DNA of 64,000 bases from a virus. The position numbers were made by a program, and so were the translations under genes. Under the pieces are notes generated by a model. The model ran no database searches and had not been told where the DNA came from. It was given only the letters and a program-made list of their open reading frames with translations. Positions 5,753-50,533 of this stretch are shown one piece after another (the first letter of the stretch is position 1; each line of letters opens with the position of its first letter). The stretch covers positions 35,041 to 99,040 of IMG/VR virus record IMGVR_UViG_3300013132_000033; one strand, given 5' to 3'.

Positions 5753-6151
5753 TCAAAGAATGTCAAGAATATCTTGCTGTTGATGTAACATTAATTTAAT
5801 AAAATCATCTAGCGTCATTGTTATTTGAGTATGTTGTGGACCTCTTTTATGTCCAGCACCTACGTTTAATTCATACGCTAAAACTACAGGGTAAGATTGA
5901 ATTATATGATCTTTTTTAAAGTTTTTTAATAAGTTATCTTTAATATATTCATACTCTTCTTCAAATCTAGGTCTACGAGTAGCATAACCTGATTTACATT
6001 GCCACAATACATTAGTACCAATCAAATCAATACCACAAGCGTCTAACATTCTGCTAGAAGATCTTGTAGTTCTACACTTCTCGTGACCTAGACTTTCTCG
6101 AACTATTTTAGCAATTTTTCTTTCAAAGTTATGACCTTTTTTTCGGCTCAT
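5753..6151 (-). CDS. PD-(D/E)XK nuclease, Holliday-junction-resolvase-like
   Basis: 132 aa. N-terminal KKGHNFERKIAKIV supplies the conserved Glu, followed by GIDLIG (Asp) and VLWQCKSG (Gln-x-Lys), the standard order of the restriction-endonuclease fold, here closest to Hjc-type resolvases and small phage nucleases. A C-terminal acidic helix follows. Likely resolves recombination or replication branches or repairs DNA; the exact substrate cannot be read from sequence. It overlaps the amidoligase upstream by 23 bp. Confidence 0.7.
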   Translation of the reverse strand: MSRKKGHNFERKIAKIVRESLGHEKCRTTRSSSRMLDACGIDLIGTNVLWQCKSGYATRRPRFEEEYEYIKDNLLKNFKKDHIIQSYPVVLAYELNVGAGHKRGPQHTQITMTLDDFIKLMLHQQQDILDIL

Positions 6152-7682
6152 TTAAAATTGCGTTAGGGATCGCAAAATTATTATCTGAGCGGAATTCATT
6201 GCCATAAACATTACCATCATGACGAATTACTTTTTGAACATTGTCATTTATACGTAATTGAATATAAGTTTTCAGAAAATCGTAAATTATTTTACCATCG
6301 TTATCATTAGCTGGATCATATACTACATTAAAGATTTCATCAAGATCGATTTTGTCTTTAGTGTATAAAATTCTATCTGCATGTAATTCTACAAATTTAG
6401 TAATAGCTGAAGTTATAAAAATCCAGGCTAATGCTTTATGTTTATTTACAGTGCCAGAATGTACACGATATTCTATGCGAGAAAACGATAGATTACCAAA
6501 ATACAAAGGTATCAAGTTAAGAGCGTAATAGCGACTATGCCATTCCCACTTAGGATGATTATGTTTTTGATGTCGACGAGTTTCTATGTTATAAGTATTA
6601 TTGTAAACACCTTCGTTTAACCATGTAAATATAAGTTTATCAGATTCATTAATATCTGAAGTATTGTCAAGATTATAACGTTTAACAATACCCAAACTTT
6701 CTAAAGGTTTACAATGATCTTTTGCACCACCAGTTTTAGACAAGAAGTAACTTAAATCACGTTTGTACAACGGTATAAATTGATTAATTTCTTGTTGTAA
6801 ACGATAGTACAATACATATAATGCAACTCTAAATTTAGGCGTATTTTCAAATCCACTCATATTTACATGAAGTGAATTATTCTGTTGAGCCATAGTATAG
6901 GTTGAAAGATCATTAAACAATTGTCGAATATAATCTACAGATAATTTTGATGGTAACGTAGTAATTTCTGTACCAAGTATAGAACCATCTTTTAATGGTA
7001 ATGCGCCATACTTATAATACAGTTTTTCTGGAAACCATCCGCCATCAGTTTCTATTTCTAATCCGAATGTATAATCAAATAAAAACTTATCAAAATTACT
7101 TTTAGCATATTTAACACTTTCAGATTGAGTTTTAATATTTCCAACAATTTCTGAAGGATATTCAGCCATACCATATATATTATTAGGTAATGTCCGATAT
7201 GTAGGTTTTTGTCTAAGTACTATTGGAGCATTAAATACAGGATTGAAACTATAAGCACCTCTTGAAAAATCATACTTCATATTAAGATATGATGCAGTTT
7301 CTTCATTCATAATAAGTTCATCATCTGCAGAAATAATACAATCATCTGTTTTTGTAAAATAACCTTTATTGTTGGATCTATCTGGTACTAAACCTTGTAC
7401 CATATTATCAATAAAATTATATTGCTTTAGGTTATAATCCCAAGCAATTTTTTTACTTACCAATCTGTAATATGTATCATTTATTTGATAACAATCCCCA
7501 GAGTCTTTTTGATTAATATTACCAATCTTGTAATATTTACCATTAATTAAACGGCATTCATTACGAGGATAAGTTTTACCATTATATGTAATAACTGTAT
7601 TTACAGTTGGTTCTACTTCTTTTGTTGCTTGTTGGATAATAGGTTCTTCAATAACTATTGGCTTTTTTCTTGATTTACTCAT
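6129..7682 (-). CDS. Amidoligase-family protein (GxExE type)
   Basis: 517 aa. After a 190-residue N-terminal region with repeated short beta motifs, the segment FGLEIETDGG has the GxExE signature of the amidoligase (glutamine-synthetase-like) family. It is followed by KDGSILGTEITTLP (Asp-Gly-Ser and Glu) and an LHVNMSG strand, matching the order in the family. Amidoligases form amide bonds from carboxylates and amines using ATP. The gene overlaps the class II glutamine amidotransferase by 8 bp and lies in a seven-gene ligase/amidotransferase island, which supports a biosynthetic or cell-surface-modifying role. The substrate is unknown. Confidence 0.75.
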   Translation of the reverse strand: MSKSRKKPIVIEEPIIQQATKEVEPTVNTVITYNGKTYPRNECRLINGKYYKIGNINQKDSGDCYQINDTYYRLVSKKIAWDYNLKQYNFIDNMVQGLVPDRSNNKGYFTKTDDCIISADDELIMNEETASYLNMKYDFSRGAYSFNPVFNAPIVLRQKPTYRTLPNNIYGMAEYPSEIVGNIKTQSESVKYAKSNFDKFLFDYTFGLEIETDGGWFPEKLYYKYGALPLKDGSILGTEITTLPSKLSVDYIRQLFNDLSTYTMAQQNNSLHVNMSGFENTPKFRVALYVLYYRLQQEINQFIPLYKRDLSYFLSKTGGAKDHCKPLESLGIVKRYNLDNTSDINESDKLIFTWLNEGVYNNTYNIETRRHQKHNHPKWEWHSRYYALNLIPLYFGNLSFSRIEYRVHSGTVNKHKALAWIFITSAITKFVELHADRILYTKDKIDLDEIFNVVYDPANDNDGKIIYDFLKTYIQLRINDNVQKVIRHDGNVYGNEFRSDNNFAIPNAILNEPKKRS

Positions 7683-9084
7683 TTGCTGGTTGTGTTTGGT
7701 AACTTAATGTTTTAGATACATATACAATACCATTTTTGCAATAATAATAAACATCGCAAAACATTGGTTTTATATAATAATTGTCATCTACGACTCCGCT
7801 ATGTTTTGTAATAACAGTTGACATTGATCCATACCAAGGAGAACCTACTATAATTGTAGATCTATGAATATACTGTTGTTTAGATTGTATACTCCAACTA
7901 TGAAAATTAACAGCAGCTTCTAGTTTTAAATAATGTTCTTTATCTTTAATCATATAACCCTCTTTAAAGAAATAAACATTATTAAAATCAAAATTAGTAG
8001 CATCCCAATCTTGACGAAATAATTGTGTAACTTTAGATAGTTCGTGACTATGCCGCCAAACACCATTAACAATATGACCATTGTGATAATATCTACCTTT
8101 CCAAAAGTAAATACCATTAGCTTGTTGTTGGGGCGAAAGTTGTTTAGTATATTCTAAATTTACATTTAGATCGTTTTTTGTCTTTTTTTCGCTTTCGACC
8201 CCATTTGACTTTTTTTCATCATCAACAGTAGGATCATATTTTGCAGAAGGGATAGTATGTTTTGGATTGTTAGTATTTTTATACAAAGGATACCCCCAGT
8301 CATCTCCCCAAGCACCACTTCCAAAGATACTTTTTGGCTTTGGTTTATATTCAATAGCACTTCTATCATAGAATGTTTTTGAAACTATTTTACCTTCTTT
8401 AATTTTATAAAGATAATTAGGTTCAAATTCTTGAATATCTTCAACAGGTACATTTAAAGCAGTAGCCAATGTCATAGCTTCTGATGAATAATATAATTGT
8501 GTTTTGGTTTTGTTTTGCCAAAATGACAATGGTCTTTCAACAGTTGGTGTAACAGAATCACATTGTGATAAGCCCTTCCATATATAAAGAGCATCTTCTT
8601 CGTAATCTAAATACGAGAATGCTGCATAACCAACATATTCTTTTAATACATCAAAACCATGTTCATATATAATATTACCCAATATTTTACTATCTACTTC
8701 TCCAGTATAAGTTTTAATATTGTATATTTTAGCAAGATCTTCAATATTCTGTATTGTGCCATTATGCGCAAAAAATACTGTATTACCCTTGCTATTATAT
8801 TCAAATGGATGTGTATTATTTATATTTACATTACCTACACTTCTAGCACGATTATGTGCTATAATTGTATGACGATATTTAGTAGTATTAAATAGTTTAC
8901 CATATACTACATTTTCTGAATTAGAATTGTCAGTACCTTTTTCGTAACCGCAATATTTAAACGCTTGTTTACCAATAACTACTCCAAAACCATCTTTACC
9001 TCGGCGATTACCATAAATAAATAATAGTTTCATTTTATCAACGTTAACAGGAGTTTTTCCTGAGTAACCAGTAAGATTGCACAT
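7675..9084 (-). CDS. Class II glutamine amidotransferase (Ntn-type) with long C-terminal region
   Basis: 469 aa. The start is fixed by chemistry: Met-Cys (MCNLTGYSG) puts a cysteine at position 2, the N-terminal nucleophile of class II amidotransferases after Met removal; the track-style start three codons upstream would bury it. NRARSVG and FAHNGTIQN follow at the expected spacing. The N-terminal ~220 residues are the glutaminase domain that releases ammonia. The C-terminal ~240 residues resemble no synthetase I recognise and include short Trp/Tyr-rich repeats (GIYFWKGRYYHNG). Lies between an ATP-grasp ligase and an amidoligase, which could use the ammonia. Confidence 0.8.
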   Translation of the reverse strand: MCNLTGYSGKTPVNVDKMKLLFIYGNRRGKDGFGVVIGKQAFKYCGYEKGTDNSNSENVVYGKLFNTTKYRHTIIAHNRARSVGNVNINNTHPFEYNSKGNTVFFAHNGTIQNIEDLAKIYNIKTYTGEVDSKILGNIIYEHGFDVLKEYVGYAAFSYLDYEEDALYIWKGLSQCDSVTPTVERPLSFWQNKTKTQLYYSSEAMTLATALNVPVEDIQEFEPNYLYKIKEGKIVSKTFYDRSAIEYKPKPKSIFGSGAWGDDWGYPLYKNTNNPKHTIPSAKYDPTVDDEKKSNGVESEKKTKNDLNVNLEYTKQLSPQQQANGIYFWKGRYYHNGHIVNGVWRHSHELSKVTQLFRQDWDATNFDFNNVYFFKEGYMIKDKEHYLKLEAAVNFHSWSIQSKQQYIHRSTIIVGSPWYGSMSTVITKHSGVVDDNYYIKPMFCDVYYYCKNGIVYVSKTLSYQTQPANE

Positions 9085-9085
9085 A

Positions 9086-10645
9086 TTAATCAAGTTGTTG
9101 AATTAAACGATTTAACTCTGCTTCATAACGCTGAGCAGTAATTTCACCAAAAGATGGTGCTGAATTAATTTCACAAATAATAAAATCATTTGTACTGCTA
9201 GCAACTCGTACATCACACGCGCCAATATCCAATCCTACAGCTTTTAATGCTTTTACACATTCTTCTACAATAACATCCCAGTTTGTAGGTTTGTTAAATT
9301 TAGGATTTGTTTCAAGAATCCATGTGCAATTATTGTCATTTCTATACCAACGTTCTTGAGCATCTTCACGAAGCATTTTACGATTAGTATAAAAACAACC
9401 ATTTTTACTTATATGAAGTCTATACTCTCGATTGTAATTATAATATTTTTCAATAATATGATTGCCATATCCATGAGATCTAAACCATTCAAGTGCTTCA
9501 GTTCCATTCTGAACAAGATATAAACCACGACCACGAGAACCAGTAAGAGATTTAATAATAAGTTTTTTATCTCCAAAATTATTATTTGAAATCCATTCTG
9601 TTAATTGAGCTTCATTAGTAGCAAATATATATTTTGCAGTACGTACATTATGTTCAGTAAATTTAGCTTTCATTAAACCTTTATTAGCTGAATTTCGTAC
9701 TGCTTCTGGAGTATTAATTTCATGTGTAGCACCTTCAACAATAGATGTTGAACCTAAGCGAAGAACTATTCTTTTATCGCCAGTTCTAATTTTGCGACGT
9801 AAAACAGCATGAGATGGGTGGCGACTTCTAATTTTAAGTAGCATACCAGTTGTTATTTTAGTGAAAGGATTATTTTTAATGTATTTTAATAATGGTTTAG
9901 CAAATTCAGCAATGCCGTAAGTATGGCTATTTGTTGCATAAAGATTTTGAGATAGTTCTGATATATGTTTTAAATCAAACGTTTCAACATCAATTTCATT
10001 ATCTCTATCTATAGCAGCTACATCTTCAACATTATATAATGTCAAATGCGGTACATTGGGGATTTGTAATTTAGATAATTCATAAAGTTGCGGTATGTGT
10101 TTAAAACCATCACCTTCAAAATTTTGTCTAGTTATAGTACCGCAATAACCAGCCCTATACAAATGTAACAAAGCTTGAAGTTTCCATTTAGTATAAAACC
10201 ACTTAGTAGTTTTACCTGTAAATATAAATGTACTATCAACATGAAACATCTCTTCAATTTCAAAATCCCAATTACAAGCAGCTTCAATTAACATGTCAAC
10301 AGCTTTTTGATGATAAGCTATTGCAATTGATATATTGTAAGGAGTATTGAAACTATTATCTGTTACATCTAAACCGTTAATACCTGCATTAGGATAATAC
10401 GCTGTATTAAATTTTAACATTGAGGCTATATCTAATGGATAACCCATACAACTCAAATACCCTGAATATAATCTTAAATTATCACCATAAGATAGAGTTT
10501 TAGATGGAATTTCTGTAAAAATACCATATACAATAGTTATATTTTGAGTATTAGGTGCGTAAGTAAAATAACTAGAGTTTACTAATTTATTAAATTTACG
10601 AAGCCAGTGTTGTTCCGGTATACTGGTGGCTATTGGCATATTCAT
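9086..10645 (-). CDS. ATP-grasp ligase
   Basis: 519 aa. The C-terminal half carries the ATP-grasp pattern: LIIKSLTGSRGRGLYLV (Lys and Gly-rich loop), HIIEKYYNYNREYRLHI, and a final ACDVRV...IICEINSAPSFGE with the metal-binding Glu and Asn. The N-terminal ~240 residues are unassigned and may bind the substrate. ATP-grasp enzymes join a carboxylate to an amine or thiol through an acyl phosphate. It overlaps the COOH-NH2 ligase-type gene by 50 bp and is followed by the class II amidotransferase, so the three are probably co-translated and act in one pathway. Confidence 0.85.
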   Translation of the reverse strand: MNMPIATSIPEQHWLRKFNKLVNSSYFTYAPNTQNITIVYGIFTEIPSKTLSYGDNLRLYSGYLSCMGYPLDIASMLKFNTAYYPNAGINGLDVTDNSFNTPYNISIAIAYHQKAVDMLIEAACNWDFEIEEMFHVDSTFIFTGKTTKWFYTKWKLQALLHLYRAGYCGTITRQNFEGDGFKHIPQLYELSKLQIPNVPHLTLYNVEDVAAIDRDNEIDVETFDLKHISELSQNLYATNSHTYGIAEFAKPLLKYIKNNPFTKITTGMLLKIRSRHPSHAVLRRKIRTGDKRIVLRLGSTSIVEGATHEINTPEAVRNSANKGLMKAKFTEHNVRTAKYIFATNEAQLTEWISNNNFGDKKLIIKSLTGSRGRGLYLVQNGTEALEWFRSHGYGNHIIEKYYNYNREYRLHISKNGCFYTNRKMLREDAQERWYRNDNNCTWILETNPKFNKPTNWDVIVEECVKALKAVGLDIGACDVRVASSTNDFIICEINSAPSFGEITAQRYEAELNRLIQQLD

Positions 10646-11459
10646 AAGGATTATTGATATTATATTTATTCATGATAGAAGCTGCAACTTCTACATTATT
10701 GTTACGAATAGCTTCAGCAGCTATTAACGTATCATTTTCAAGTTGACTACTCCAATTATTAGCTAATTCTACAGCTTGCATAACACCGTCATATACCCAA
10801 CCAGTAATTATTTCATTCCTACTCATTGCACCACCAAGCGTTCTGTATTCAACAATATTAATATTTTCAATTTGTCGAAAACGAAAATCACCTGGATTAC
10901 CATAGATTTGCCTACGATCAGTATCAGTATCAAGAAATAAACTACCAAGACCTACTGTTAAGTCCATAGCTTTAATAATATTAATAGCCGCATCACGAGC
11001 ATCACTACCTTCACATTCATAACCAATATGAATATGAAAACCAAAAGACCTTAAATTACCAACTTGTTCAGGAGTTGGACGAGGACTAATATCTAGTGTA
11101 TAAGCATCATAAGAAGGTTCACAACCAAACAATTGAGCTATTTGTGAATTAAGTTCTTTATTACTATATCTTGCAGAAGATACACATCGCAACTGCCATA
11201 ATGGTTGTTGTTCTTGAAGCTTTTCTTGCGTAAGCTTTTTAATAATTTCTATATTATTAACAAATTGTTCTTTAGTATATGCTGGTGGAATACAACCTTC
11301 TACACCAACATTATCAATTTGAATACTAAACTCACCATCATCTGTAAGAGGATACGGTTGACGTTTAGTTCCAGGAATGAAACCTACAGCTGACTTAGGA
11401 GTTTCGTTTTCAAAGGCAGCAAATTCAGGATCGCTACCAACAGTGATATTTTTAATCAT
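10596..11459 (-). CDS. phiEco32-like COOH-NH2 ligase / amidoligase
   Basis: 287 aa. Starts with TVGSDPEFA (GxDPEF), the hallmark of the phiEco32-type amidoligase family. It also has DDGEFSIQIDNVGVEG near residue 45 and FHIHIGYE near residue 140, the metal/ATP-binding strands of a glutamine-synthetase-like fold. In phiEco32-like phages this family is found with amidotransferases and ATP-grasp enzymes and was proposed to make a peptide-like modification. Five bases from the GNAT gene upstream. Confidence 0.82.
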   Translation of the reverse strand: MIKNITVGSDPEFAAFENETPKSAVGFIPGTKRQPYPLTDDGEFSIQIDNVGVEGCIPPAYTKEQFVNNIEIIKKLTQEKLQEQQPLWQLRCVSSARYSNKELNSQIAQLFGCEPSYDAYTLDISPRPTPEQVGNLRSFGFHIHIGYECEGSDARDAAINIIKAMDLTVGLGSLFLDTDTDRRQIYGNPGDFRFRQIENINIVEYRTLGGAMSRNEIITGWVYDGVMQAVELANNWSSQLENDTLIAAEAIRNNNVEVAASIMNKYNINNPYEYANSHQYTGTTLAS

Positions 11460-11463
11460 TGTA

Positions 11464-11883
11464 TTAATCGAAATTAAAATAATACAAACTAATTGTATTA
11501 CCTGTTTTAAAATTGGTGAATGTACTCATAACTTGAAAACCATACTTTTTTAAAAGATGGTCCATTTCAGGACTATAACCATTTGTAGTAGCTTGCAATT
11601 GAGAACAATAATGAATTTTAAGTACTAACTGCAATAATAAATTACCGTAACCTTGATTACGCATTTCTTCTATAACTACTACAGAATTTAAAACTTCAAT
11701 ACCACAACAACCGGGATAAGCATTAATGTTAAACATACCAATTTCTTGATATTTTTTACCATAAATCAACCTTCGTTTCCAATTATTTTTAATATAAACT
11801 GTATAACGAGATTGATCAAATCCACGATTATAGTAAAGAGTTTTACCATTTATCATGTATTTAGTTAAATCTTTTTCTTCCAT
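11464..11883 (-). CDS. GNAT-family acetyltransferase
   Basis: 139 aa. Motif A is VVVIEEMRNQGYGNLLLQLVL (R-x-x-G-x-G acetyl-CoA pyrophosphate loop) near residues 75-95, preceded by the beta strand CGIEVLNSV. The C-terminal YGFQVMSTF strand completes a minimal GNAT fold. It overlaps the preceding amidotransferase by 23 bp. In the surrounding island it may acylate an amine or, as some GNAT relatives do, transfer an amino acid. Substrate unknown. Confidence 0.8.
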   Translation of the reverse strand: MEEKDLTKYMINGKTLYYNRGFDQSRYTVYIKNNWKRRLIYGKKYQEIGMFNINAYPGCCGIEVLNSVVVIEEMRNQGYGNLLLQLVLKIHYCSQLQATTNGYSPEMDHLLKKYGFQVMSTFTNFKTGNTISLYYFNFD

Positions 11884-12553
11884 AAAGCATGCTGTTTATT
11901 ATATTAATACTAAACTCATCATAGATTTCTTCTGGATGCCATTGTACTGCTACAATTGGTTTGTCTTTAACCCAAAATGCTTCTACATTATTAAATACTG
12001 AATTTGTATAAATAATTTTAATATTTTCACCTAAACGATCTTTATTAGTAATACCTTGATGATGTAATGAATTAACTTTTAGTTTAAAAAGTTTAACTTC
12101 ATTGTCAGTAAAATACTTAAAAGCATTTGTAAAATTATCAGCAGATCCAACTAAAGTATCAACAAGTTTATCACGAGGATCTGAATACTCTTGAGCAATA
12201 TGTTGACTTAAAGTACCACCAAAATGAACATTAAGTGTTTGAAAACCACGGCAAATACCAAACATAGGAATACCTGCAGCGATATATTGTGGTAACATAT
12301 ATTTATCCCAATCTTCTAATTGAATATTAGGATTACCTGATTGAAATACTGGTCTTTCACCATAACGAGAAGGATCGACATCCGCTCCGCCTGGAATAAT
12401 CAACAAATCAATATCTGTATGTACTTTATTATCGTATGCAAAAATTGGTATTGGAATACCAAAATGTGCTGCAAATGTACTATACGTTGCGGGCAGATTC
12501 ATCTGACCAGACTCTACTTTCGTTAATAATACTCCTATTCGCTGTTGTTTCAT
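11861..12553 (-). CDS. Class I glutamine amidotransferase-like hydrolase (peptidase C26 type)
   Basis: 230 aa. The nucleophile elbow FGICRGFQTLN has the catalytic Cys, and VQWHPEEIYD near the C-terminus has the His-x-Glu pair, giving a full Cys-His-Glu triad. LLIIPGGADVDPSRYGE matches gamma-glutamyl hydrolases such as PuuD, which cleave gamma-glutamyl amides, rather than synthetase-bound glutaminases. First 74 bp overlap the related upstream gene, so the two are probably ancient duplicates. Likely function: hydrolysing or remodelling gamma-glutamyl bonds made by the neighbouring ligases (inference). Confidence 0.8.
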   Translation of the reverse strand: MKQQRIGVLLTKVESGQMNLPATYSTFAAHFGIPIPIFAYDNKVHTDIDLLIIPGGADVDPSRYGERPVFQSGNPNIQLEDWDKYMLPQYIAAGIPMFGICRGFQTLNVHFGGTLSQHIAQEYSDPRDKLVDTLVGSADNFTNAFKYFTDNEVKLFKLKVNSLHHQGITNKDRLGENIKIIYTNSVFNNVEAFWVKDKPIVAVQWHPEEIYDEFSINIINSMLYGRKRFN

Positions 12554-13394
12554 GCGTTGTAATTAATTTTGTAGTTGGTAATTCTAATGGTAAAGTTGGT
12601 TGAGGTGTGGGAGTAGTAATAATTGTTGGTATAGCCCTAACTTTATTAAGTGTTTCTTTTAAATAAGGATATACATCAGCAAAATTACTAAATCTTTTAT
12701 CAATAAGGACATTGTGCGGATTTACACTATCTTTATGTTTATCAAACAATATTTTAAGATATTTATTAATAAACTCTAATGTTTTACTTGGCATTCTCAG
12801 TTCTGGGTGTCCTTGAATACCAAAACCTTTAATCAAACCTAAATAAAAGATTTCAGGTTCACGGTAAGTTATACTGTTTAACGGTACAGTTTCATAATTA
12901 GCATTTGGAACTAATGTTTCATTATCAGTACCGTTAATATAACAATTACTAATAGAATCAGCCCATGCAAGTAATATATTTTTATGTTCTACTGATGATG
13001 CCAAAGAATACCAATTAACCATTTGATGGTGAATTGAATTAGTAGTTAACAAATCTTTTTTACCTATAATATTAATATTATGATCACCTCTCATGTGATT
13101 ACTTACATGTTGAATAAGAACACCGCCATTAGCAATACCTAATAATTGCGCACCCCTGCATATACCAATTAAAAATTTATTTTGATAATAAGCTTCAATC
13201 AAACATTTTAATTGATGTTTATCTACGTCTTCATAAAAATATGTTTGATGAGAAGTTTTTTCTCCATATAATGCTGGATACCAATCTGAACCTCCCGGAA
13301 ATATTACTGCATCTGCATCTTCAATACTGTTAACTATTTCAACATTATCTATCCACGCCGCATCGCGATTTGAACCTACACAAAATACCTTCAT
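12480..13394 (-). CDS. Class I glutamine amidotransferase-like protein
   Basis: 304 aa. VIFPGGSDWYPALYGE, then LIGICRGAQLLGIANGG with the catalytic Cys, a conserved His-His in SIHHQMV, and FGIQGHPELR with His and Glu: an intact triad. The last ~80 residues form a Pro/Thr-rich tail (TIITTPTPQPTLPLELP) absent from the sister gene. Same fold as the next gene but only distantly similar by eye. It begins the amidotransferase/ligase island and starts 3 bp from the stop of the preceding hypothetical. Confidence 0.78.
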   Translation of the reverse strand: MKVFCVGSNRDAAWIDNVEIVNSIEDADAVIFPGGSDWYPALYGEKTSHQTYFYEDVDKHQLKCLIEAYYQNKFLIGICRGAQLLGIANGGVLIQHVSNHMRGDHNINIIGKKDLLTTNSIHHQMVNWYSLASSVEHKNILLAWADSISNCYINGTDNETLVPNANYETVPLNSITYREPEIFYLGLIKGFGIQGHPELRMPSKTLEFINKYLKILFDKHKDSVNPHNVLIDKRFSNFADVYPYLKETLNKVRAIPTIITTPTPQPTLPLELPTTKLITTHETTANRSIINESRVWSDESARNV

Positions 13395-13396
13395 AC

Positions 13397-14278
13397 TTAT
13401 TCTTTGTTATATTGTTTTTTAATTATTTCATCTATAGACCTTTCAGCTTCTTCTATAAATTTTTTGTCGTAAGCACCTCTTTTACTTTCCGATATAGCAT
13501 TACGAAATCCTATATTAGTATTTGCAGAATACGTAGTGGAATTACCTATTGTAATATGTTCAGGATTGAATTCTGAATTAACTTTTGGATTAGCTTCTTC
13601 TATATTATCAACTATTTGCAACTCTTCTTTATCTTTGCGACGGTTTGGTCTTTTAGCAGGAGCTTTTTCAATTACTATATTAATAATATCAGTAATAACT
13701 TTGTATTTAACAGGATCTGATTCAATTACCCTAAGCGCTTCAAGATAGTCTTGAAAGTTTGAGAATGAACTTTCATGTGACCATTTTAATTTTAATTTTT
13801 CATATTCTGCTTGAATATCAATTTCAGATGTTTTATCTTCTTCATTTAATTGAAGTTCTGTAATAATCTGATTGTAATATTCATTTTGTAAACAAAGTTT
13901 TACAATAACTTGTGCCAAGTCACTAAGTTTATACTTAGAAGCAAGTTCGTCTTCTGTTAAACCATTGACATTTTCTGCAGTAATTTCTTGATTGTATAAA
14001 GAACTAATTTCTTCAAAAGATGGTAATTCCAGCTTATTAATAATACTTTCAATTTTATGATTTGTATTAGCATACCCTTTAAAAATACCACCTTTTTGAA
14101 GAGGATTTGTAAGAGCTATAATACCATCATATTGATAATCTGGAATCCATGCGTACAGTTGTGTAGTATTACCTTTAATATTTTTAAAAGCATATGCACG
14201 ATAGTATTGATTACCACCAGATATTGAAAAAGCTTTTTTAGGTAAATCCCAAATTTCTATTGTTCTAAGATCTGACAT
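13397..14278 (-). CDS. Hypothetical replication-block protein (293 aa)
   Basis: Soluble, acidic, mostly helical in the second half, with a basic patch (KAPAKRPNRRKDKEE) near residue 210 that could contact nucleic acid. No recognised motif. It overlaps the primase by 22 bp, so it is probably co-translated with it. Primase accessory or single-strand-binding partner is possible but unproven. Confidence 0.55.
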   Translation of the reverse strand: MSDLRTIEIWDLPKKAFSISGGNQYYRAYAFKNIKGNTTQLYAWIPDYQYDGIIALTNPLQKGGIFKGYANTNHKIESIINKLELPSFEEISSLYNQEITAENVNGLTEDELASKYKLSDLAQVIVKLCLQNEYYNQIITELQLNEEDKTSEIDIQAEYEKLKLKWSHESSFSNFQDYLEALRVIESDPVKYKVITDIINIVIEKAPAKRPNRRKDKEELQIVDNIEEANPKVNSEFNPEHITIGNSTTYSANTNIGFRNAISESKRGAYDKKFIEEAERSIDEIIKKQYNKE

Positions 14279-15216
14279 AATTCGTCATTTAAATTATGAT
14301 TATTAGACGCATCATATACGTCTTTTGCTAAAGTTAAAAATCTTATTTGACTATTAGGTAGTTTATCACTTAATAGTTTACTATATTTGATGCCAGTATC
14401 ATCATTGTCAAATAATATAATTACTTTACGAAACTGATTAATAACATCCATGTATTTATATGGAAAATTAATACTAGTTTCTGATTGCGGTGCTATACTA
14501 TTATAACCATATTTATGAGTTAATAATAATCTGTCTTTTTGAGATTTAGTTATTACTAATAATTCTGGATTGCATTCGTAATAATTTTCTAGTTCATTTC
14601 CACCATATACATCGTTTTCATTACAATTAGTAAAAAATTTAAATTGAGTATTAGGAAAATAAAGTTTTACATTATTTGTATCTGGAAAGTAATAAGCGTA
14701 CGTATCAACTTTAGTAGGGTTATAAATATTATTCATATCCCAACTACCATTGTTATATATCCAATATTTAGATACTTTATATACATGTTCTGCTTGTAAT
14801 ATATTAGGTGCAATCTTAAAGTAATTATCGTTATCAAACGGTATGTGTTCAAATCTAATTTGAACTTTAGGTTTGTTAGATTCTACACGTTTAAGATTAT
14901 AATTTAATTTTACATTACTTTCTTTAATAATTAAATGCAAAGCTTCTAGAAAACTACAACCTTTTAATATAGCTAATGTATCAATTACTGTAAAATACAA
15001 TTTATTATTGTAAGTAGCATTATCTTTAAAATAAAGAATACCGGAATGCCAGATAAACCGACATCCCGGATTCTTATCGTTTCTAAATATTGAATGATAC
15101 ATCTTGTTTAAATCAACAGTCAATCCAGTATATTTAAAAAATAAATCTTCTTGATTTAATTGTATTAATGCTGTATGAGCATCAATATATTCGTAAGATT
15201 GACTTGATTTGAACAT
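14257..15216 (-). CDS. DnaG-like primase (TOPRIM)
   Basis: 319 aa. The N-terminal half has the IFRNDKNPGCRFIWHSGILYF pattern of phage primases (zinc-ribbon-like region without a clear Cys set). It continues with LLVITKSQKDRLLL (TOPRIM Glu replaced by Thr-Lys-Ser-Gln) and VIILFDNDDTGIKYS (TOPRIM DxD). Makes RNA primers at the fork. It lacks an obvious helicase domain; the DnaB-like helicase is a separate gene at 17659. It touches the next gene by one base. Confidence 0.72.
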   Translation of the reverse strand: MFKSSQSYEYIDAHTALIQLNQEDLFFKYTGLTVDLNKMYHSIFRNDKNPGCRFIWHSGILYFKDNATYNNKLYFTVIDTLAILKGCSFLEALHLIIKESNVKLNYNLKRVESNKPKVQIRFEHIPFDNDNYFKIAPNILQAEHVYKVSKYWIYNNGSWDMNNIYNPTKVDTYAYYFPDTNNVKLYFPNTQFKFFTNCNENDVYGGNELENYYECNPELLVITKSQKDRLLLTHKYGYNSIAPQSETSINFPYKYMDVINQFRKVIILFDNDDTGIKYSKLLSDKLPNSQIRFLTLAKDVYDASNNHNLNDELCQILEQ

Positions 15217-33036: not shown

Positions 33037-33043
33037 ATATTCG

Positions 33044-33127
33044 TACCCGGAACAGGACTTGAACCTGTACAACCTTTTGGGTCAAGGGATTTTAAGTCCC
33101 TCGTGTCTACCATTTCACCACCCGGGC
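33044..33127 (-). tRNA. tRNA-Leu(UAA)
   Basis: 84 nt type II tRNA: acceptor GCCCGGG/TCCGGGT with terminal wobble pairs, D arm with GG (AAATGGTAGAC), anticodon arm AGGGA-CTTAAAA-TCCCT (anticodon TAA, U33 present), variable arm GACCCAAAAGGTT, T arm ACAGG-TTCAAGT-CCTGT. UUA is a dominant Leu codon in these AT-rich genes. Confidence 0.9.
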
Positions 33128-33134
33128 ATTAATG

Positions 33135-33217
33135 TGGGTAAGAAGGGATTCGAACCCTCAATCCATAATGGCAACAGATTTTAAGTCTGTCGTGTATACC
33201 AGTTCCACCACTTACCC
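33135..33217 (-). tRNA. tRNA-Leu(UAA), second copy
   Basis: Acceptor GGGTAAG/CTTACCC, D loop AACTGGTATAC, anticodon arm ACAGA-CTTAAAA-TCTGT, long variable arm, T arm GAGGG-TTCGAAT-CCCTT. Complete and canonical. Same anticodon as its neighbour but a different body, so not a recent duplication. Confidence 0.92.
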
Positions 33218-46793: not shown

Positions 46794-49119
46794 AAATATA
46801 GATACATGGAAAGTAAAAATTCCTAAACTTCATCCTGATAATGAAAAATTTAGTAAAATATGGTCATTATATACAAAACATTGTATAGAAGGATTATGGG
46901 GATTTGATTCAGGAGGTTGGCGTTTTATGCCAGGAACTTTATTTTTTTATGGTAATTTCTTTTCAATTCTTGACATAGATAAAAAACAAAAAGTTCGCCG
47001 ATACGTAAGACCTGACATTCGAGATATAGATTGGATGTTACATTATGCTTATCTTGAATGTCAAGGTTTTTCGGGTTGGAGAGATGATGATGAATATACA
47101 TCTAATTATGATGTATTAAAATGTCAAAGTATAGCAGATACAAATAATCCAAATTTAGTAAGTTCTAAAGGTAAACTTAAAACTTTTATAGCACCTAGAG
47201 AAAATATTAAAAAGTTACATGATAAAGTTAAAGGTCCTCCTTTATATGAAAATCCAGCTAAAAATCTTTTAGTATTTGGATCACGTGGCGGAGGTAAATC
47301 ATTTACTTTTTCTGGTATATCTGGACACCATGTAACATTTGATGGATTAAAGTATTTTACACAAGAAGATTTTGATAATCCTCCTACTATTGAAGTATGT
47401 GTAGGTTCCGGTAATACTGATAAATCATCTGAATTTTGTACTAAAATTGAAGAAGGTTTAAAAGCATTTGGAACAGATAATGATTTAGGGGTATGGGGTA
47501 AAGCTGATAGAGGTGATGATGATTATACTCCCAACCCTTTTTATCGAGATTGGGAAGGTTCTATTGGAGTAGGCAATAAAAAGAATCCGTTTAGATATGA
47601 ATATTCAGCTAAAATAAATAATCGATGGATTCATGGTTTAGGTACTAAAACTAAACTTATACATGTAAACTATTCTGATAAAAAACAAGGTGGTGAAGCA
47701 GCTGCAGCAGGTGGACGTTATGTTTTAATATTATATGAAGAAATTGGTTTAATGTCTAATATTGTTGATGCTTGGTTTTCTAATGTGGGTACTGTAACAG
47801 ATCCTAATGGTAATCAATTTGGAGTACAAGTTGGTATTGGTACATCAGGTAATATTGAATTAGTACAGCAATCAAAAAAGATTTTTAATAATCCTAGAGA
47901 TTATAATTGTTTAGCTTATAATGATATTTGGGAAAATAATGGTGAAATAGGTTTTTTCTTATCTGCTTATTTAACTAACTCTCAATTTAAAGATAAAAAT
48001 GGAAATACTGATGTAGAAAAAGCTTTACAATTTTATATGGACAGGCGTATTGAAGCTGGTAAATCAACTGATCCTGAAGCATTACGTAATGAAAAAATGA
48101 ATTATCCGTTGATACCATCTGATATGTGGCATTCATCTAAAGGACATCACTTTCCAGTAATGGAATTAATGGATAGAGAAAAAGAACTTGTAAAATTTGG
48201 TAAATATAGAACTATTGGTCAACCTGTAAATTTACTTTGGGATTCTACTAGACAATATGGTGTAAAATCAGAACCTGATTTAAATGCTGAACCTTTTTAT
48301 GAGTTTCCTTATAATCACACAAATACTAAATTAGATGGTTCTATTTTAATATATCAAGAACCTGAATTAGTAAATGGCGAAATACCTCCAGATATGTATT
48401 TCTTTGTATTAGATCCTTATGTTGCAGATGATGTTGATGAAGGCGGATCGTTAGGTGCTTTTTATGGTTTTATTAACCCTAAATATGGAGCGCCTTATAA
48501 TGGAGGAAGTATGGTATGTTCTTACGTTGGTAAACACCCTAAAGGACGTGATGGTTATTATGAAAATATTGAAAAGATTATTGCATATTATGGTAATAAT
48601 AATAGAAGTTTATGGTATGAAGCAAACCGAGGTGATTCTGTAAGAGGTTATTTTTTAAGACGTAACAAGTTAAATTTATTAGCGTTAAGTCCTACTAGAG
48701 AAAAAGGTAGTTCGGCCTACGAAAAGAAAGTATTAAGTTATGGTATTATGCTAAACGGTATAGAACAAAAACTTGAAATGATTGGTGATGCTTCAGATTA
48801 TTTAATGCAACAAGTGATTTATAATAATAAAGAAATACGATTTGTTGAAACATTACCTGATATATTTTTAATACGTCAAATGTTAGCATTTGAGTTAAAA
48901 AAACATAAAAACTTTGATGCTGTTTCTGCTTTTATTATGGCACCTTTTGTAATGAAAGAATTAAGACACTTACAAATCAGAGAAGAAGAAAAGAAACATA
49001 GACATAATCCTCTAGCGGCATTATCTATGAATCCTAATATCTTTAGACCTGATGATATACAACAAAAAATAAAACGTTTTCATGAACAATATACAACCTA
49101 CAACGAAAATAATCAATGA
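46747..49119 (+). CDS. terL: Large terminase subunit
   Basis: 790 aa. Walker A FGSRGGGKSFTF near residue 175, Walker B YVLILYEEIG near 325. The nuclease half begins with FFVLDPYVADD (metal Asp) and continues to LWYEANRGDSVRGYF. Packs genome into preformed heads and cuts it. Overlaps the chaperonin gene by 38 bp, so the two are made in fixed proportion. Confidence 0.92.
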   Translation: MIQNLDLLKKDLIKIENIDTWKVKIPKLHPDNEKFSKIWSLYTKHCIEGLWGFDSGGWRFMPGTLFFYGNFFSILDIDKKQKVRRYVRPDIRDIDWMLHYAYLECQGFSGWRDDDEYTSNYDVLKCQSIADTNNPNLVSSKGKLKTFIAPRENIKKLHDKVKGPPLYENPAKNLLVFGSRGGGKSFTFSGISGHHVTFDGLKYFTQEDFDNPPTIEVCVGSGNTDKSSEFCTKIEEGLKAFGTDNDLGVWGKADRGDDDYTPNPFYRDWEGSIGVGNKKNPFRYEYSAKINNRWIHGLGTKTKLIHVNYSDKKQGGEAAAAGGRYVLILYEEIGLMSNIVDAWFSNVGTVTDPNGNQFGVQVGIGTSGNIELVQQSKKIFNNPRDYNCLAYNDIWENNGEIGFFLSAYLTNSQFKDKNGNTDVEKALQFYMDRRIEAGKSTDPEALRNEKMNYPLIPSDMWHSSKGHHFPVMELMDREKELVKFGKYRTIGQPVNLLWDSTRQYGVKSEPDLNAEPFYEFPYNHTNTKLDGSILIYQEPELVNGEIPPDMYFFVLDPYVADDVDEGGSLGAFYGFINPKYGAPYNGGSMVCSYVGKHPKGRDGYYENIEKIIAYYGNNNRSLWYEANRGDSVRGYFLRRNKLNLLALSPTREKGSSAYEKKVLSYGIMLNGIEQKLEMIGDASDYLMQQVIYNNKEIRFVETLPDIFLIRQMLAFELKKHKNFDAVSAFIMAPFVMKELRHLQIREEEKKHRHNPLAALSMNPNIFRPDDIQQKIKRFHEQYTTYNENNQ

Positions 49120-50533
49120 TGACTTACAATTTATCATTGATGGTATAAAACTAGCTTCTGATGTAGTTATATCTACAATGGGAGGTTCAGGTAAAAATAT
49201 TATTCTTAGTAATAATAAAGATTTAAACTTTACTAAAGATGGTGTATCAGTAGCTAAAGCTATTTCGCTACCCGATCCTCAAAACAATATTGGAGCTAAA
49301 TTACTTATTAACGCAGCTAATAAAACTGTAGAACAATGTGGTGATGGTACTACATCTACTATTTTATTCGTACGTTCTTTAATTGATTCTATTTATATTC
49401 AAGATATTACAGATGTTAATAAATTTATTGAAGATCTTGATGATTTTGTAGAAAAATTTAAAACTATTATTACACAACAATCTAAACCTGTAGATAATAT
49501 TGATGATATTTACAAGATTGCACTTACATCTAGTAAATCACCAAAGATTGCAGCTTTAATTAAAGATATTTATTCTAAAACTGGTTTTAAAGCAAATATT
49601 TCATTAGAAGAATCTAAAGTATCTGATAAAACGTATTATGATTTAATTGAAGGTTTAAATTTTGAATCTGGTATGGTTAATACACGATTTGCAAATCAAG
49701 AAAATGGTAATTGTACTCTTGAAAGTGCTACGTTAATTCTTGAAGAAGAACTTGTATCATCACCTCAATCTTATGAAAAGATTTTAGGATACTGTTTAGA
49801 AAATGATAATGCTATTGTAATTATGGCGCCTATGTTTTCAGATGCATTTGTTCGATTTGCACTAACTAATAAAATGCAAAATGGGTTAAAAATATGTTTA
49901 GTTAAAACTCCTGGGTATGGTAATTACAGTAAAGAAAATTATAAAGATATAATGTCATTTGCTAATGATGATGGTACAGTAAATAAAATTGTAATTTCTC
50001 AACATGATTTTACAATTTATAATAAACCTGAACTTACTAAACTTAATCGTCGTTTAAATCAATTACAAAAACTTGCTGATAATAGTACTGAAATTTATGA
50101 TATTGAAGATTATACAAATCGAATTCATAGGTTAAATCAAACTGGTGCTATTATTTATGTTGGCGGAGTTACTGAAAAAAATCTAAAAGAAGAATATGAT
50201 CGAATTGAAGATGCTATTGGTGCAGTGTCAGTAGCTATTAAGAATGGTTATGTTCGAGGAGCTGGTGTTGAACTAGTGCAAATTATACCTTTGTTTAAAG
50301 ATAGTCCTATTTTTAAATTAATTAAAGACGTCCTGTATAAACCCTACAGTCAGATTTTAAAAAATGCTAATATTACAAGAACTTTAAAGACAGATATTCC
50401 GTACAATGTACGATCTAAATCCTACGATGAAAACATTATTGATCCGTCAAGTGTAGTTATTAGTTCCTTGACAAATGCAGTATCATTATTTAAACTTTTG
50501 ATTAACACTTCGTATGTTGTACATAACGAGTAA
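49082..50533 (+). CDS. GroEL-like chaperonin
   Basis: 483 aa, shorter than bacterial GroEL (about 545). N-terminal MGGSGKNIILSN...FTKDGVSVAKAI and CGDGTTSTILF are the chaperonin nucleotide-site motifs (TKDGVT and GDGTTT). An apical region with long insertions follows and YVRGAGVELV stands for GGGxAL/E. Together with the GroES-like gene at 44550 it forms a phage-encoded folding machine. Whether it makes single or double rings cannot be told here. Confidence 0.85.
   Translation: MNNIQPTTKIINDDLQFIIDGIKLASDVVISTMGGSGKNIILSNNKDLNFTKDGVSVAKAISLPDPQNNIGAKLLINAANKTVEQCGDGTTSTILFVRSLIDSIYIQDITDVNKFIEDLDDFVEKFKTIITQQSKPVDNIDDIYKIALTSSKSPKIAALIKDIYSKTGFKANISLEESKVSDKTYYDLIEGLNFESGMVNTRFANQENGNCTLESATLILEEELVSSPQSYEKILGYCLENDNAIVIMAPMFSDAFVRFALTNKMQNGLKICLVKTPGYGNYSKENYKDIMSFANDDGTVNKIVISQHDFTIYNKPELTKLNRRLNQLQKLADNSTEIYDIEDYTNRIHRLNQTGAIIYVGGVTEKNLKEEYDRIEDAIGAVSVAIKNGYVRGAGVELVQIIPLFKDSPIFKLIKDVLYKPYSQILKNANITRTLKTDIPYNVRSKSYDENIIDPSSVVISSLTNAVSLFKLLINTSYVVHNE

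Follow-up and report, generated by a model that had tools for sequence, protein, structure and literature searches.

A 'putative peptidoglycan modification cassette' has been named in RIO-1, phiEco32, LUZ24, PaP3 and PA11-like phages (PMC5498523; PMC11945000). The proposal goes back to Iyer 2009 as the original source and to Hardies 2013, both as cited in later work (PMC5498523; PMC11945000), and holds that peptidoglycan side chains are modified, with superinfection prevention, endolysin targets or a weaker wall as the proposed outcome (PMC5498523; PMC11945000; PMC10580990). In the literature that we searched, to which Iyer 2009 did not belong, we found neither a biochemical or genetic test of this role nor a paper treating the cassette in crAss-like phages. 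Two crAss-like records, cr108_1 and phi14:2, are already annotated with cassette genes. Outside these phages, PuuA/PuuD (putrescine use) and BtrJ/BtrG (butirosin side chain) pair an ATP-dependent gamma-glutamyl ligase with a remover of the C26 or GGCT type. The locus studied here is similar in this ligase-plus-remover logic, but there is no orthology of the whole set. Judged by gene content and position, it is a variant of the known phage amidoligase cassette, set apart by an ATP-grasp fusion, its C26/GGCT make-up and a GNAT gene, and carried by a crAss-like phage. The initial annotation had rightly linked it to phiEco32-like amidoligase sets, and had passed over the N-terminal fusion of the ATP-grasp protein, the absence of GGCT and the fact that this is a known cassette in a crAss-like phage. 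Its suggestion of a small peptide-like product or of altered peptidoglycan coincides with the published hypothesis (PMC5498523; PMC11945000), with which the enzymes are compatible.

The cassette was found in the virus record IMGVR_UViG_3300013132_000033 (99,040 bases), of which bases 35041-99040 were analysed (64,000 nucleotides, hereafter the window). TerL is closest to that of Cellulophaga phage phi14:2 (30% identity), followed by those of other crAss-like records, and a portal and an MCP gene, both identified by PHROG matches, are located downstream of the terminase. By these three proteins and its genome size of about 100 kb, the phage belongs to Crassvirales. In the interval between terminase and portal (49082-50533), a gene matches the PHROG 'chaperonin groEL' (4.7e-78), which is possibly a misannotated family of the crAss-like structural block. 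Two tRNA-Leu genes with the same anticodon (taa) lie side by side at 33043-33217.

As the initial annotation had described, seven co-directional genes form a dense, overlapping cluster at 6129-13394. All are long open reading frames on the minus strand that overlap or nearly abut, in the order of transcription C26a, C26b, GNAT, COOH-NH2 ligase, ATP-grasp, class II GAT and Amidoligase_2 (AL2). Pfam and PHROG matches bear out the assigned identities, namely two amidoligases, an ATP-grasp ligase, one class II and two class I amidotransferases and a GNAT protein (Table 1). The cluster is placed among early and replication genes, with a DNA primase and one gene of no assigned identity on one side and a RusA-like gene on the other. 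The homologous cassettes of cr108_1 and phi14:2 occupy the identical site, between the primase on one side and RusA-like/UDG genes on the other. The G+C content of the cassette (30%) equals that of its surroundings (29-31%), and there is therefore no sign of recent import.

Table 1. Genes and regions of the amidoligase cassette and its flanks (positions in the window)
Feature	Position	Strand	Size	Evidence or remark
RusA-like gene (flank)	5753-6151			
AL2, amidoligase (Amidoligase_2/GCS-like)	6129-7682	-	517 aa	phrog_2443 3.2e-16; alignment with 85 relatives
GAT2, class II glutamine amidotransferase (Ntn, Cys2)	7675-9084	-	469 aa from likely start ATG 9084	GATase_6 5.7e-12; 1te5 match
ATPg, ATP-grasp ligase	9086-10645	-	519 aa	ATP-grasp 2e-5; phrog_2599 6.8e-32
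Orphan N-terminal region fused to ATP-grasp	9860-10645	-	~262 aa	no relative detected
COOH, COOH-NH2 ligase type 2 (GCS-like)	10596-11459	-	287 aa	phrog_3815 2.6e-48
GNAT-family acetyltransferase-like	11464-11883	-	139 aa	PF13508 5.6e-5; motif RNQGYG
C26b, Peptidase_C26 gamma-glutamyl hydrolase-type class I GAT, B clade	11861-12553	-		PF07722 1.5e-33; PuuD/Lin1909-like
C26a, Peptidase_C26 gamma-glutamyl hydrolase-type class I GAT, A clade	12480-13394	-		PF07722 4.4e-15
DNA primase (flank, outside cassette)	14257-15216	-		phrog_12622 5e-25

Catalytic residues were checked in alignments made for each family (86-126 sequences). GAT2 keeps Cys2, Arg79, Asn108-Gly109 and Asp131. Its true start is likely the ATG at 9084, which puts the Cys directly after the initiator Met as in Ntn enzymes; the protein also bears a C-terminal extension without an assigned function. 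Both C26a and C26b keep the Cys nucleophile, the HHQ motif and His-x-Glu, as in the PuuD type, the HHQ motif being that of Lin1909/PuuD-type enzymes. The invariant K/E/R/K/D/E set of the ATP-grasp domain and D10/E12/H142/H144/R182/R193/E204/R206 of the COOH-NH2 ligase are intact. The earlier claim that all key residues are visible thus holds for these five proteins but is too strong for AL2. This protein keeps ExE, DGS, H272 and E404/R406, but its HxH motif reads HVN, with Asn274 at a position that is His in 99% of the relatives. It departs at three of the 19 columns that are at least 90% conserved, Asn274 among them, and is the second-worst of 80 sequences in this respect. The Asn in place of a near-invariant His means that one pathway step may be impaired. 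A docking domain common to the N-terminal region of AL2 and the C-terminal region of GAT2 was considered and rejected, as there was no convincing signal.

To survey gene neighbourhoods, a check that the initial annotation had suggested, relatives were collected from IMG/VR via the ATP-grasp and COOH-NH2 ligase alignments and combined with named phages, and iterated profiles served to assign their open reading frames. This gave 74 loci with flanking sequence, one of them that of the window. The cluster is present in relatives, and the four-enzyme core was found together in 73 of the 74 loci (COOH-NH2 ligase 74, ATP-grasp, class II GAT and Amidoligase_2 73 each). C26 is encoded in 64 loci, GGCT in 49 and at least one of the two in 69; because loci were picked by COOH-NH2 ligase or ATP-grasp, selection bias weighs less on the figures for GAT2, AL2, C26 and GGCT. 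Furthermore, the distance matrices of the core proteins correlate for all six pairs above all 200 permutations (Spearman 0.26-0.68), and the core is therefore inherited largely as a unit. By these matrices, the four core genes co-evolve. The window fits this pattern, with the four core genes encoded together and C26 present in two copies. The gene set had been called larger than usual, which is only mildly true, since many relatives have 7-9 cassette members. The GNAT gene is accessory (5/74 loci), with its closest relatives in the locus L159.

The two gamma-glutamyl-hydrolase-like proteins to which the initial annotation had drawn attention are both present, but they are not special. C26 proteins fall into two old clades, A and B, and every locus with at least two C26 genes has one of each, so that the pair in the window is ordinary; a recent duplication was rejected for the same reason. 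The window is the only one of the 74 loci with two C26 genes and without GGCT; no GGCT gene was detected in the whole 99-kb record. A strict replacement of GGCT by C26 was rejected, as both are present in 44/74 loci. In several loci (L013:16033-17481, L031:12253-13539, L077:15268-15945 and similar ones) a second, different class II GAT directly follows the amidoligase. In two unrelated phages, genes for PncB/nicotinamide phosphoribosyltransferase and PRPP synthetase were observed a few kb from the cassette (L004:3748-7957 and L007:1005-3568).

When compared with described phages, the same core as in the window is found in RIO-1/PSA-HP1-like podoviruses, LUZ24, PaP3, tf, PA11, phiEco32, 7-11 and CW02. 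A class I GAT and/or GGCT and the arrangement in one early operon beside replication genes are also common to both, whereas the window differs from RIO-1-type cassettes by the lack of GGCT, the two C26 clades, GNAT, the orphan N-terminal region of the ATP-grasp protein and its occurrence in a crAss-like phage. In cr108_1 and phi14:2, the cassettes have the core and genomic position of the window, and they provide the best sequence matches of its ATP-grasp protein (49% identity to cr108_1 gp028 and 42% to phi14:2); C26a is 36% identical to cr108_1 gp031. In contrast to the window, neither has the ATP-grasp fusion or GNAT; cr108_1 encodes one C26 and two proteins of the X family described below, and phi14:2 encodes GGCT and no C26. 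The Leptolyngbya phage Lbo-JY46 resembles the window in its full core and both C26 clades, with Lbo_10 38% identical to C26b, but also encodes GGCT, different companions and a third C26-like protein. In this third class I GAT-like protein (L004:15745-16506), the catalytic Cys was lost (GIGRGAS for GICRGxQ).

According to the family alignment, the ATP-grasp domain of the cassette corresponds to residues ~263-519 of ATPg. The region preceding it had no detectable relatives in IMG/VR, the fetched loci or 50,697 phage records, with no meaningful phage match even at E 10. An in-frame ATG at 9844, just ahead of the domain, makes separate translation of the ATP-grasp domain possible. We considered whether this region is GGCT or belongs to the X family and rejected both, as the resemblance was by eye only, without profile support. 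The X family comprises proteins of 200-340 aa in or beside the cassettes of many relatives (among others L150:8603-9376, L001:11941-12843 and 12853-13842, L142:8290-9540 and L006:3843-4775), carried by crAss-like and PA11-like phages and, where the profile links are weaker, also by phiEco32-like ones. An alignment of 24 sequences, whose columns average 18% identity, shows an invariant Cys, an invariant Arg and a His conserved to at least 90%. Nothing convincing was matched in Pfam, PHROGs or PDB; in L142 the protein is fused to C26. In the genome of the window, no X-family profile match was found, and the N-terminal region of ATPg is not detectably related to the family.

The reactions of the cassette enzymes can be proposed from what is known of their families. 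The seven genes would form an operon inside the replication genes and encode one pathway. AL2, the COOH-NH2 ligase and the ATP-grasp enzyme would use ATP to activate carboxylates and couple them to amines, with gamma-glutamyl bonds probably among those formed. The class II GAT would hydrolyse glutamine to supply ammonia or glutamate. The two C26 proteins would remove gamma-glutamyl groups or drive amidation, a role that GGCT may help to fill in relatives, and GNAT would be an optional cap. Three ligases, a glutaminase and two C26 proteins fit a pathway that builds and then trims amide or gamma-glutamyl bonds. Our leading, still tentative reading is a single phage pathway that makes and trims such bonds in the host cytoplasm, with the peptidoglycan precursor stem peptide as the likeliest target. 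New wall made during infection would then contain altered linkages, which may block superinfection or tune the wall for the phage's own lysin; this target and its benefit are a hypothesis only. The enzyme families with their catalytic residues, the co-presence of the core (73/74) and of C26/GGCT (69/74), the correlated distances and the HHQ motif count for this reading. No hydrophobic segment of the kind seen in exported or membrane proteins was found in the cassette proteins, and any effect on the wall would therefore be on cytoplasmic precursors.

In all, 317 phage records contain the cassette COOH-NH2 ligase, and most of them belong to phages of well-known diderms. The hosts listed are all diderms (Pseudomonadota, Bacteroidota and a cyanobacterium), with 15 organism names outside this listing, which is compatible with a peptidoglycan target, if weakly. 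Against this target counts that no dedicated peptidoglycan enzyme (Mur ligase, MurT or transpeptidase) was recognised among the conserved cassette neighbours. These are replication genes, with uracil-DNA glycosylase common (38 loci), a neighbourhood that may only reflect early expression. We also looked for a version on host chromosomes and rejected it, as the ATP-grasp search of GTDB gave one cassette contig, the 9-kb L162, which is probably viral. The other ATP-grasp matches in GTDB were Clostridia loci with glycosyltransferase-like genes and only distant similarity. Among them, L163 and L165 (Clostridiales and Mogibacterium contigs) represent loci of gut Clostridia in which these distant relatives are sometimes in tandem, together with genes for glycosyltransferase-like and membrane proteins.

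The lack of recognised wall-specific enzymes nearby favours another reading, doubtful in itself and nearly as likely as the peptidoglycan target, in which the product would be a small peptide, gamma-glutamyl or amidated, that is free to diffuse and serves as an inhibitor, signal, cofactor or osmolyte. By analogy with BtrJ/BtrG and PuuA/PuuD, gamma-glutamyl might serve as a temporary protecting group. The combination of ligases with gamma-glutamyl removers across the survey and the PuuD type of the C26 proteins point in this direction as well, but neither a carrier protein, a precursor peptide gene nor an exporter was recognised as a conserved companion. More speculatively, and rather unlikely in our estimate, diderms infected by these phages may contain a so far unrecognised multi-step pathway whose product is new, specific and gamma-glutamylated or amidated. 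X-family proteins would take part in it in many cassettes, and the N-terminal region of ATPg in the window would be a diverged or replaced form of a component of this kind.

The remaining explanations rank below the peptidoglycan and free-peptide readings. The ATP-grasp protein falls in a PHROG named 'ribosomal protein S6 glutaminyl transferase' (phrog_2599), and the cassette proteins are cytosolic in lacking export or membrane segments, as would suit a RimK-like tagging system that attaches amino acids or short peptides to a protein of host or phage and so alters transcription or translation. We regard this as improbable, since two GCS-like ligases, the C26/GGCT small-molecule hydrolases and a glutaminase exceed its needs, and a PHROG name annotates the protein without testing its function. 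Nitrogen scavenging, with the ligases in a secondary role and phage nucleotide synthesis fed by ammonia or glutamate from glutaminases and amidases, would suit the fact that unrelated phages carry the cassette between primase and further genes of DNA metabolism, but is very unlikely because three ATP-consuming ligases, superfluous for scavenging, are kept in nearly every locus. Least probable of all is DNA hypermodification by adding amino acids or peptides to bases, since, despite the location inside the replication block, no base-hydroxymethylating or pyrophosphorylase partner was recognised among the conserved neighbours and the frequent uracil-DNA glycosylase is as for ordinary DNA.

Whatever the product of the cassette, its COOH-NH2 ligase recurs in many environmental phages, including crAss-like phages of ~100 kb, and the whole set takes up 5-10 kb of coding capacity. 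Modification of peptidoglycan has been proposed repeatedly since 2009-2013, with no test of it found in the literature searched. Our survey defines a minimal four-gene core together with the trimming enzymes C26-A, C26-B and GGCT, so that the cassette can readily be reconstituted or deleted in experiments.
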